DNA of 64,000 nt from Gallaecimonas sp. GXIMD4217 (GTDB lineage Bacteria > Pseudomonadota > Gammaproteobacteria > Enterobacterales > Gallaecimonadaceae): the NCBI RefSeq assembly GCF_038087665.1, contig NZ_CP149925.1:558001-622000 (forward strand), in the 5' to 3' direction. A program made the position numbers and the translations under genes. This document shows, one piece after another, positions 30,746 to 34,092 of this stretch. Every line of letters starts with the position of its first letter. Within the stretch, counting starts at the first letter, position 1. The notes beneath the pieces are model-generated. The model saw only the letters and a list, made by a program, of their open reading frames with translations, was not told the origin of the DNA and made no database searches.

Positions 30746-32284
30746 ATGGCCTTTGCCAAGCCGGTTCGCCTTGATTCCCTGAGCGCCGCCACCCAGAGCG
30801 GCGATTTCGACGCCCTCATTCTCATCCATGGCCCCAGGGCCGATTTTCCCGCCGAACTGGCCGACGCCCTGGCCCAGTACCAGGCCTTGGACCAGCGCTT
30901 TGCCAGCGGCACCGTGCTGATCGCCAACGCCGCCGCCCCGGGTGGTCGCATCATCGCCAGCGCCACCGGTCCCCTGGACAGGGACTATGACGACGTGCGC
31001 CGCTTCTACGACGCCGCCAGGCAGGCCGCCCAGGCGGCCCGTGATGCCGGCAGCCGCAATCCCGCCCTGCTGGTGCTGGGCATGCCGGACGACGAGCGCT
31101 ATGGCAATGCCGAGGCGGTGGCGGCCCTGGGCTTCTGGCAGGCCCTGTGGCAGCCCCTGGAGGCCCGCGAGGCGAGAGGGGAGGGCGAGGTGGAGCCGGT
31201 CGAGAGCCTGGGCATCATCTCCGAGCAGGCCGATATCGACCGCCTGATGGCCCTGGAAGCCGGCCGCCGCGCCGGCCGCGATCTCTGCGGCACCGAGCCG
31301 GAGCGCATGGCGCCCCAGCGCTTCGCCGAATACTGCGAGCAGCTCTTTGCCGGCAGCCCGGTCAAGGTGTCGGTGCTGGCGGACGTGGATCGCCTCAAGC
31401 GCGACTATCCGCTGCTGATGGCCGTGGCCAGGGCCAGCCTGGACGTGGACCGCCACATGCCCTGCGTGATCCGCCTGGAATATGTGGGCGAGGGCCCCAT
31501 AGAGAAGACCCTGCTGTTCGCCGGCAAGGGCATTACCTATGACACCGGCGGTGCCGATCTCAAGATCAATGGCGCCATGGCCGGCATGAGCCGCGACAAG
31601 GGCGGCGCCGCCGCCGTGGCCGGCTTCATGAAGACGGTGGCCGAGCTTAAGCCCCAGGGCCTGAAGGTCATCGCCGAGATAGGGGCGGTGCGCAACAGCA
31701 TAGGGGCCGACTGCTTCGTGCCGGACGAGATCGTCACCAGCCATGCCGGGGTGCGCTCGCGCATCGGCAACACCGACGCCGAAGGGCGCCTGGTGCTGGC
31801 GGATCTGCTGTCCCACCTGCGTGAGGACGCCCTGGAGGCGGTGGAGCCGGAGCTGTTCTCCATCGCCACCCTCACCGGTCACGCCGCCCGGGCCATGGGC
31901 CCCTACACGGCGGTGCTGGAAAACGGCCCGGCCCGGGCCCTGCATACCGCCGAGACCTTCATGCACCAGGGCGATCTCTGGGCCGATCCGGTGGAGCTGT
32001 CCCGCCTGCGCCGCGAAGACTACGATTTCGTCCGTGCCCGCAGCCCGGCCGATGACGTGCTGACCAGCAACAATGCGCCGTCCAGCGTCACCAGCCGCGG
32101 TCACCAGTTCCCCATGGCCTTCCTGGCCATCGCCTCTGGCCTCGACAGGCATGGCAACAGCGCCGACAAGCCGCTGCCCTACACCCATATCGACATCGCC
32201 GGCAGCGGTGTCGAAGGGGGCGACTGGCAGCACGGCAAGCCCTCGGCGGCGCCGGTGCTGACCCTGGCCGCCACTTACCTCTGA
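30746..32284 (+). CDS. M17 leucyl aminopeptidase family protein
   Basis: A 512-residue M17 metallopeptidase. FAGKGITYDTGGADLK supplies the catalytic Lys and metal Asp, NTDAEGRLVLADLL the metal Asp/Glu and the bicarbonate-site Arg, and SIATLTGHAARAMG follows. The substitution of GGADLK for the usual GGxSxK and the long N-terminal domain suggest a PepB-like or uncharacterised subgroup rather than PepA. It removes N-terminal residues from peptides in the cytoplasm. It is followed by a terminator. Confidence 0.88.
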   Translation: MAFAKPVRLDSLSAATQSGDFDALILIHGPRADFPAELADALAQYQALDQRFASGTVLIANAAAPGGRIIASATGPLDRDYDDVRRFYDAARQAAQAARDAGSRNPALLVLGMPDDERYGNAEAVAALGFWQALWQPLEAREARGEGEVEPVESLGIISEQADIDRLMALEAGRRAGRDLCGTEPERMAPQRFAEYCEQLFAGSPVKVSVLADVDRLKRDYPLLMAVARASLDVDRHMPCVIRLEYVGEGPIEKTLLFAGKGITYDTGGADLKINGAMAGMSRDKGGAAAVAGFMKTVAELKPQGLKVIAEIGAVRNSIGADCFVPDEIVTSHAGVRSRIGNTDAEGRLVLADLLSHLREDALEAVEPELFSIATLTGHAARAMGPYTAVLENGPARALHTAETFMHQGDLWADPVELSRLRREDYDFVRARSPADDVLTSNNAPSSVTSRGHQFPMAFLAIASGLDRHGNSADKPLPYTHIDIAGSGVEGGDWQHGKPSAAPVLTLAATYL

Positions 32285-32300: not shown

Positions 32301-32327
32301 AGAGGCGGCGAAAGCCGCCTCTTTTTT
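32301..32327 (+). terminator. Intrinsic terminator of the M17 peptidase gene
   Basis: AGAGGCGGC, GAAA tetraloop, GCCGCCTCT and T-run; 17 bp after the stop. Confidence 0.92.
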
Positions 32328-32400
32328 AGGCTGGAGATGTAATTTACTTTCTGGATCTGCCGTTGTCCCGCACTTTTTGCGGCCTTGGTCACAAAATGGC

Positions 32401-32429
32401 TTGTAATAAAATTACACGATGGCTAGAAT
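32401..32429 (+). promoter_or_regulatory. Sigma-70 promoter of the 40-aa mini-gene
   Basis: TTGTAA at 32401, 17-bp spacer, TAGAAT at 32424. It lies in an AT-rich stretch after a terminator, and no other gene is near downstream except the small ORF. Confidence 0.65.
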
Positions 32430-32435
32430 GGCACC

Positions 32436-32561
32436 CGTAATGAGGCAAGGCCCATTACCTCGTGCTCACCCCAGGGAAGGGGGATGGGTATCTCCAGGGA
32501 ACCGAGATCAGGCGCATAGGTGGAGCATCGGCTCCGGTCTGAACATTGTTGGAGGCTTATC
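32436..32561 (+). other. Structured 5' leader of the mini-gene
   Basis: About 125 nt between the predicted transcript start and the small ORF. Visible stems are GTAATG/CATTAC at about 32436-32457, ATCTC/GAGAT near 32492-32510, and GGAGC-ATCG-GCTCC at about 32522-32535, just ahead of the ribosome binding site. No known riboswitch class is recognised. The leader is unusually long for a 40-codon gene, so regulation by RNA structure is possible. Confidence 0.45.
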
Positions 32562-32684
32562 ATGACCAAGGTCACTTTCCCTTTCGGTAACAACGGCGTC
32601 TTCCGCTTTCCCCTGACCACTGACGGCAAGGCGGCACCGCAATTTCGTTACCCCGTCCTCTGGGCGCGAGGCAAGCAGAAATAA
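32562..32684 (+). CDS. 40-residue small protein, unrecognised
   Basis: ATG preceded by GGAGG with a 6-nt gap, 40 codons, TAA. It has its own promoter, leader and terminator, so it looks like a complete small transcription unit. The peptide begins MTKVTFPFGNNGVFRFPLTT and ends VLWARGKQK. It is basic, aromatic-rich and has no membrane segment, with three FPF/FRFP-like turns. No family recognised; it is either a real small protein or the coding part of a regulatory RNA. Confidence 0.55.
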   Translation: MTKVTFPFGNNGVFRFPLTTDGKAAPQFRYPVLWARGKQK

Positions 32685-32688
32685 CCGC

Positions 32689-32716
32689 AAAAAGGCCACC
32701 ATCCGGTGGCCTTTTT
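32689..32716 (+). terminator. Intrinsic terminator of the mini-gene
   Basis: AAAAAGGCCACC, ATCC loop, GGTGGCCTTTTT; 4 bp after the small ORF stop. Confidence 0.92.
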
Positions 32717-32732
32717 GTTGCCCTGGCCTTTC

Positions 32733-32799: not shown

Positions 32800-34092
32800 A
32801 TGCTGGAAAGACTGTTCAAACTCAACGAACTGGGCACCACGGCCCGCCAGGAAGTGATCGCCGGCATCACCACCTTCCTGACCATGGCCTACATCATCTT
32901 CGTCAACCCCAGCATCCTGGCCCAGGCGGGCATGGATCAGGGCGCCGTCTTCGTGGCCACCTGCCTGGCCGCAGCCCTCGGCTGCCTGATCATGGGCCTG
33001 GTGGCCAACTACCCCATCGCCCTGGCCCCCGGCATGGGCCTCAACGCCTTTTTCACCTATACGGTGGTGCTGACCCAGGGCTACAGCTGGCAGGCGGCCC
33101 TGGGGGCGGTGTTCATGTCCGGCTGCCTCTTCCTGCTGCTGAGCCTGTTTCGGGTCCGCGAGTGGATCATCAACTCCATCCCCGGCGCCCTGAAGATCGG
33201 CATTGCCGCCGGCATCGGCCTGTTTCTGGCGATCATCGCCCTTAAAAATGCCGGCATCGTCGTTGATCACCCGGCCACCCTGGTGACCCTGGGCGATGTC
33301 CACTCCCTGCCGGTACAGCTGGCCATACTGGGCTTCTTCCTGATCGTCGGCCTGATCAGCCGCGGCGTGAAGGGCGGCGTGATGCTGGCCATACTGGCCG
33401 TCACCGGCCTGGGCCTGCTCCTTGGCGACATCCAGTACCAGGGCATTGCCTCCATGCCGCCGTCGGTGCTGCCGACCCTGATGCAGATGGACTTGTCCTC
33501 GGCCCTGGAGCTGAGCATGCTGTCGGTGGTGTTCGCCTTCCTGTTCGTGGATCTGTTCGACACCTCCGGCACCCTGGTGGCGGTGGCCCAGAAGGCCGAG
33601 CTGCTCGACGAGAGGGGCCGGCTGCCGCGCCTGAACAGGGCCCTGCTGGCGGACAGCTCCGCCACCATCGCCGGCGCCGCCCTGGGTACCTCCACCACCA
33701 CCTCCTATGTGGAAAGCACCGCCGGCGTCGCCGTGGGCGGCCGCAGCGGCCTGACCGCCGTGGTCACCGGCCTGCTGTTCCTGGCGGCGCTGTTCTTTGC
33801 GCCCCTGGCTGGCATGGTGCCGGCCTATGCTACCGCCGGCGCCCTGTTCTATGTGGCGGTGTTGATGATGGGCAGCGTCAAGAACATCCATTGGGATGAC
33901 CTCTCCGACGCCGTACCCGTGGTGGTGGTGGCGGCGCTGATGCCGCTGACCTTCTCCATTGCCCACGGCATCGCCTTCGGCTTCATCAGCTTCGCCCTGG
34001 CCAAGGTGTTGGCCGGCAAGGCCAGGGAAGTCACCCCGGCGGTGTGGGTGGTGGCGGCCCTGTTCCTCCTCAAGTTTGCTTTTGCGGGATAA
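32800..34092 (+). CDS. NCS2/AzgA-type purine permease
   Basis: A 430-residue, about 12-14 helix permease of the AzgA/GhxP/AdeP branch (adenine, guanine or hypoxanthine). Signatures are [56 protein letters not shown] and [30 protein letters not shown]. Uptake is probably H+-driven. It starts 4 bp upstream-coupled to gpt, so imported guanine or xanthine can be converted directly to nucleotide. Confidence 0.9.

Follow-up and report, generated by a model that had tools for sequence, protein, structure and literature searches.

Small proteins from short autonomous transcripts

SgrS/SgrT and SR1/SR1P are short autonomous transcripts under sugar or central-carbon regulators, each carrying a protein of about 40 residues. 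VcdRP of Vibrio cholerae is a dual-function RNA with a transcript of its own of more than 300 nt, in which the ORF starts about 104 nt in and encodes the 29-residue VcdP, with CRP acting at the promoter (PMC8672173). HexR recognises the consensus TGTAATTAAATTACA, and represses from sites located downstream of a promoter while activating from sites located upstream (PMC11906056). In Pseudomonas, HexR is released from the DNA by KDPG (PMC5489143), and in Shewanella aceBA is a predicted HexR target (PMC3223726). At the RNA level, CsrA/RsmA recognition is directed at ANGGAN loops (PMC7652899).

The locus described here lies in a window of 64,000 nucleotides from Gallaecimonas sp. GXIMD4217 (contig NZ_CP149925.1, positions 558,001 to 622,000). 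It is a genuine gene, conserved in evolution, which encodes a protein of 40 residues and is known so far from one genus. Its elements are of known kinds, and Rfam, Pfam and NCBIfam hold no family that the peptide or the leader matches.

Layout of the unit

The unit (32401-32719 of the window) is composed of a promoter, a leader of about 126 nt, a Shine-Dalgarno sequence, a 40-codon ORF and a terminator, and sits just 3' of the pepB terminator. The transcript is predicted to be about 285 nt long.

30746-32284: pepB (leucyl aminopeptidase-like), the upstream gene
32301..32327, plus strand: pepB terminator, AGAGGCGGC-GAAA-GCCGCCTCT followed by a T-run, read in the sequence
32401..32429, plus strand: sigma-70-type promoter TTGTAA-17-TAGAAT, 9/12 matches
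32436..32561, plus strand: structured 5' leader, its beginning estimated from the position of the -10 box
32550..32555, plus strand: Shine-Dalgarno sequence TGGAGG, 7 nt 5' of the ATG
32562..32684, plus strand: ORF of 40 codons for the small protein MTKVTFPFGNNGVFRFPLTTDGKAAPQFRYPVLWARGKQK (orthologues in three species)
32688..32719, plus strand: intrinsic terminator, a perfect 13-bp inverted repeat (32688-32717) with a T-run
32800-34092: purine/NCS2-type permease gene, the next gene 3' of the unit in this genome

An earlier note on this DNA had described a self-contained mini-gene with a TTGTAA-17-TAGAAT promoter, a leader, a strong Shine-Dalgarno sequence, a 40-codon ORF and a perfect terminator, placed between two terminators. 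Each of these elements is present at the coordinates listed, and pepB has a hairpin terminator of its own. The terminator of the unit is bidirectional as judged by its sequence, and the -10 region of the promoter is kept in the congeners as GCTATACTG / GCCATACTG.

Orthologues and distribution

The genome of the window (G000, 3.35 Mb) was compared with those of the other four species of the genus (G001-G004), which is the sole genus of its family among the genomes of the order that were searched. The unit is present in four of the five species (G000, G001, G002 and G003), where it is located directly downstream of pepB. Its presence in G001, G002 and G003 is recovered with each of three queries, namely the peptide, a 17-nt leader core and a covariance model built on the leader. 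The peptide and covariance searches that the earlier note had proposed for related genomes thus both return the unit in three congeners, and the lack of conservation at both levels that would have refuted the proposal is not seen, with both peptide and leader core being conserved.

In G001-G003 the gene order is pepB, unit, pstS, all in the same direction, and in the fifth species (G004) pepB and pstS are present and the unit is absent. The 3' neighbour differs in the genome of the window, where the permease gene (32800-34092) stands in the place of the pstS found in the congeners (L004, L005, L007). This difference in gene order shows that the DNA has been rearranged at the unit's 3' border, and the unit goes with pepB and not with pstS.

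Beyond G000-G003, the peptide, the core and the covariance model gave no convincing unit in the order (394 genomes) or in the class (369 genomes). A peptide match in G004 (L006) falls in the coding frame of an ion channel and a match to the core motif in G188 (L011) lies inside a transporter gene; both are attributed to chance, as are, by score or context, the weak matches to the RNA model (L046, L047) and to the peptide profile (L051-L053) in the searches of order and class. Four matches to the H3 hairpin sequence in a collection of 85,000 genomes (L020-L023) all lie inside long coding frames; about seven matches would be expected by chance. A search of the same collection with the peptide profile gave no confirmed match, a result to be read with confirmation having relied on the most divergent member and with a collection that may omit near relatives of G000.

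The small protein

The four peptides align end to end, with M1, K3, P7, F8, N10, G12, F14, Y30, P31, W34 and K40 invariant, and describe a soluble, basic protein of 39-40 residues. Pairwise pS among the four species is 0.68-0.88, which is near saturation, against a pN of 0.16-0.47. The peptide is thus under purifying selection and, as far as the codon pattern tells, a translated, selected small protein. Of the features expected of a dual-function RNA, the unit offers a conserved ORF under codon-level selection together with its own promoter and terminator.

The peptide matches no Pfam or NCBIfam family and its best PDB profile match, the eukaryotic eL33, is not significant (E 0.034). An AlphaFold2 model of the peptide is uninformative (pLDDT 61, pTM 0.14).

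The leader RNA

The leader holds a core, ATCTCCANGGAACCGAGATCAGGCGC, which is identical in the four species apart from one variable loop base N and is preceded by CCTCGnGCT. The core is thus near-identical while synonymous sites in the same four species are close to saturated. Four helical elements are predicted.

32437..32458, plus strand: hairpin H1, stem at the same place in 4/4 species with differing sequence (predicted folds)
32469..32482, plus strand: hairpin H2, CCCC-AGGGAA-GGGG with an ANGGAN hexaloop; CANGGA at 32472-32477
32490..32508, plus strand: hairpin H3, ATCTC-CAGGGAACC-GAGAT, invariant in four species bar N; CANGGA at 32495-32500
32509..32541, plus strand: helix H4, CAGGC/GUCUG, in congeners CAGGC/GCCUG; inner stems differ (alignment)

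Taken alone, the several stems that had been read in the leader do not go beyond chance, the single-sequence fold being only slightly better than that of shuffles (z = -1.1). Full-transcript folds differ among the species and do not form H2 and H3 consistently; in the G000 transcript other pairings are preferred to these two. A formal covariation test of H1-H4 would need more than four sequences. An ordinary fold, together with the absence of the unit from the fifth species, is what would be expected if promoter-, Shine-Dalgarno- and terminator-like sequences had come together by chance in an intergenic gap. This explanation is refuted by the four-species synteny at the promoter, RNA and codon level and retains a vanishingly small probability. 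The unit is judged to be real because of its conservation, that is its syntenic orthologues, the purifying selection on the peptide and the near-invariant leader core, and not because of the single-sequence fold. The earlier note had suggested either a small protein or an RNA regulator that holds a short ORF, and this suggestion is supported on both sides, for the peptide by the codon pattern and for the leader core by its near-identity. The HexR-type operator over the -35 box, the two CANGGA motifs, the orthologues and the apparent restriction to one genus come on top of what that note described.

The Shine-Dalgarno sequence is predicted to be paired in 4/4 species, and a compact, near-invariant structured core 5' of it could be taken for a riboswitch, a cis-acting leader which binds a metabolite and controls translation of the small protein. 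However, the leader reaches no Rfam family at the gathering score, its weak sub-threshold matches corresponding to the terminator hairpin, and among the genomes searched, 394 from the order and 369 from the class, it precedes no other gene, whereas riboswitches usually recur in front of several genes. A riboswitch is therefore very improbable, and the remark that the locus resembles no known riboswitch class or peptide holds, given equally the lack of a Pfam or NCBIfam match. A fixed anti-Shine-Dalgarno switch operated by the CTCC of H3 was likewise discarded as a general mechanism, since the segment with which the Shine-Dalgarno sequence preferentially pairs varies between species.

A different use of the core would be pairing in trans. 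The unit would then be a dual-function RNA that encodes the small protein and whose 5' half base-pairs with other mRNAs through CTCCANGGAACCGAGATCAGGCGC and the CCTCG upstream of it. The leader core is far better kept than synonymous sites and longer than a CsrA site requires, its C/U-rich CCTCG and CTCC segments are like anti-Shine-Dalgarno seeds, and the size and layout are like those of VcdRP (PMC8672173). However, no near-perfect complement to the core was found in G000 on either strand with one mismatch allowed, and the core is predicted to pair within itself; this explanation is fairly unlikely.

A HexR-type operator at the promoter

Two operator-like sequences lie ahead of the unit.

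32339..32348, plus strand: distal HexR-like operator, a degenerate remnant TGTAATTTAC that aligns with the intact TGTAATTAAATTAC in three congeners
32402..32416, unstranded: TGTAATAAAATTACA, a HexR-type operator that overlaps with the -35 box

A pattern search of G000, from which the genome-wide motif statistics derive, finds a single perfect copy of TGTAATNNNATTACA in 3.35 Mb, against 0.009 expected from base composition, and this copy is located on the -35 box of the unit. The operator or operators ahead of the unit are kept in 4/4 unit-bearing species; two HexR-like operators are found in G001-G003, of which the distal one has decayed in the genome of the window. A GacA/UvrY box, whose half-sites are TGTAAG and CTTACA, was rejected as an alternative, as the half-sites here are TGTAAT and ATTACA and lie three bases apart.

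G000 encodes a single RpiR-family regulator, which is HexR (NF008451, 545 bits against a cut-off of 296), with hexR located between zwf and pykA. All five genomes carry the HexR palindrome on either side of hexR, in the zwf-hexR and the hexR-pykA intergenic regions, with two mismatches each in G000 and one in the congeners; in G000 it also occurs upstream of aceB with one mismatch. What characterises a HexR regulon in sequence, namely a palindrome at the promoter, an encoded HexR and the motif at classical targets, is thus found, and HexR control of the unit is well supported as a prediction. The position of the operator over the -35 box implies that this control would be repression.

A further HexR-like site, TGTAGTAAAATTACA, lies on the minus strand with one mismatch at locus L018 (G000:C1:2444510-2447524, 1501-1705). 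It is located 5' of a promoter-like TTGCCA-18-TAGAAT and of a stretch of about 150 nt that ends in a perfect terminator, and a sub-threshold Rfam match to anti-hemB is seen there (30.1 bits, E 2e-5). L018 is possibly an orphan small RNA of the HexR regulon.

CsrA-type motifs in the leader

Two CANGGA motifs occupy matching places in 4/4 leaders, as CAGGGA/CAGGGA in the window, CATGGA/CACGGA in two species and CAAGGA/CAAGGA in one, so that CA and GGA are invariant and N reads G/T/T/A in H2 and G/C/C/A in H3. Only N varies, which is the position that CsrA/RsmA recognition would leave free. In the window and in G003, H2 has precisely an ANGGAN hexaloop with a C-G closing pair, whereas the loop of H3 has 9 nt in place of the canonical closed hexaloop. 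A GGAG without a preceding A-N is present in the Shine-Dalgarno sequence of 4/4 species. Of random 130-nt stretches of the window, 2.1% hold at least two CANGGA motifs, a share that is small, though at this level two hits of a 5-nt motif are not rare.

CsrA is encoded in genomes of the genus, and so are CsrB-like RNAs rich in GGA/CANGGA, whose matches (E down to 1e-18) stay under the Rfam gathering score. G000 has two of them in tandem, which fall narrowly short of that score (L024, L029; G000:C1:936851-937725), and the other four genomes have two or three, likewise in tandem.

Control of the leader by CsrA is about as likely as not. The near-invariant core extends beyond what a CsrA site requires, and another factor may also read it. 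Since the motif is the same as that in the CsrB-like RNAs of the genus, the CANGGA hairpins might instead serve mainly to sequester CsrA under HexR/KDPG control, with the peptide secondary. However, the unit has only two good motifs, where the CsrB-like RNAs carry about 17-21 GGA, and selection on the peptide is clear. Other loci match the CsrB model (RF00018) but the unit does not, and with two CANGGA motifs only it does not classify as a sponge RNA; titration of CsrA as its main role is very improbable.

Proposed mechanism

The favoured interpretation, held with slightly more belief than doubt, is that the unit is a stand-alone small-protein mRNA which is repressed by HexR until KDPG rises, controlled by CsrA after transcription, and encodes a protein that may tune a partner in carbon metabolism. 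By occupying the palindrome on the -35 box, HexR would block transcription, and a flux of Entner-Doudoroff sugars would raise KDPG to free HexR from the DNA, upon which the transcript of about 285 nt would be made. The two CANGGA hairpin loops would then be offered to a CsrA dimer and, together with the structured Shine-Dalgarno region, could set the level of translation. That the small protein would adjust a partner in central carbon metabolism, in the manner of VcdP, SR1P and SgrT, is a guess by analogy.

This mRNA is possibly a dual-function RNA as well. The fullest version would be a genus-specific dual-function RNA which links the two principal carbon-control circuits of gammaproteobacteria, with transcription under HexR/KDPG, CsrA governing either translation or the activity of the RNA, a new family of small proteins that tunes an enzyme of central metabolism, and pairing of the near-invariant core with other mRNAs; this version is rather unlikely.

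If HexR control holds, an autonomous small-protein unit would be added to the HexR/KDPG regulon, and if CsrA binding also holds, sensing of the glucose route would be joined to the carbon-storage system in one gene of 285 nt. The peptide lies outside known families and is a direct target for pull-down. Furthermore, the locus illustrates that a small gene absent from family libraries can be recognised through synteny, codon selection and an operator.

Comparison with known systems

Like the CsrA-controlled leader of glgC (PMC7652899), the unit has a GGA in a hairpin loop, here a predicted one, upstream of the start codon and a GGA in the Shine-Dalgarno sequence, but in the unit the Shine-Dalgarno site lacks a full ANGGA and the CsrA sites are predicted ones. 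With the HexR regulon (zwf, pykA, aceB) it has the 15-bp palindrome in common, which at the unit is located over the -35 box. The known members of this regulon are metabolic enzymes, whereas the unit is an autonomous small-protein gene, a kind of HexR target of which no description was found in the literature. In layout the unit resembles VcdRP, both having a transcript of their own with an ORF after a long leader and a central-carbon transcription factor at the promoter, which is of the HexR type in the unit and CRP in VcdRP; the peptide of the unit has 40 residues. SgrS/SgrT and SR1/SR1P, which are like the unit in being short, autonomous and under sugar or central-carbon regulators with a protein of similar size, differ from it in having SgrR and CcpN/CcpA as regulators and in the placement of the ORF, and SgrT and SR1P appear unrelated to the peptide of the unit.
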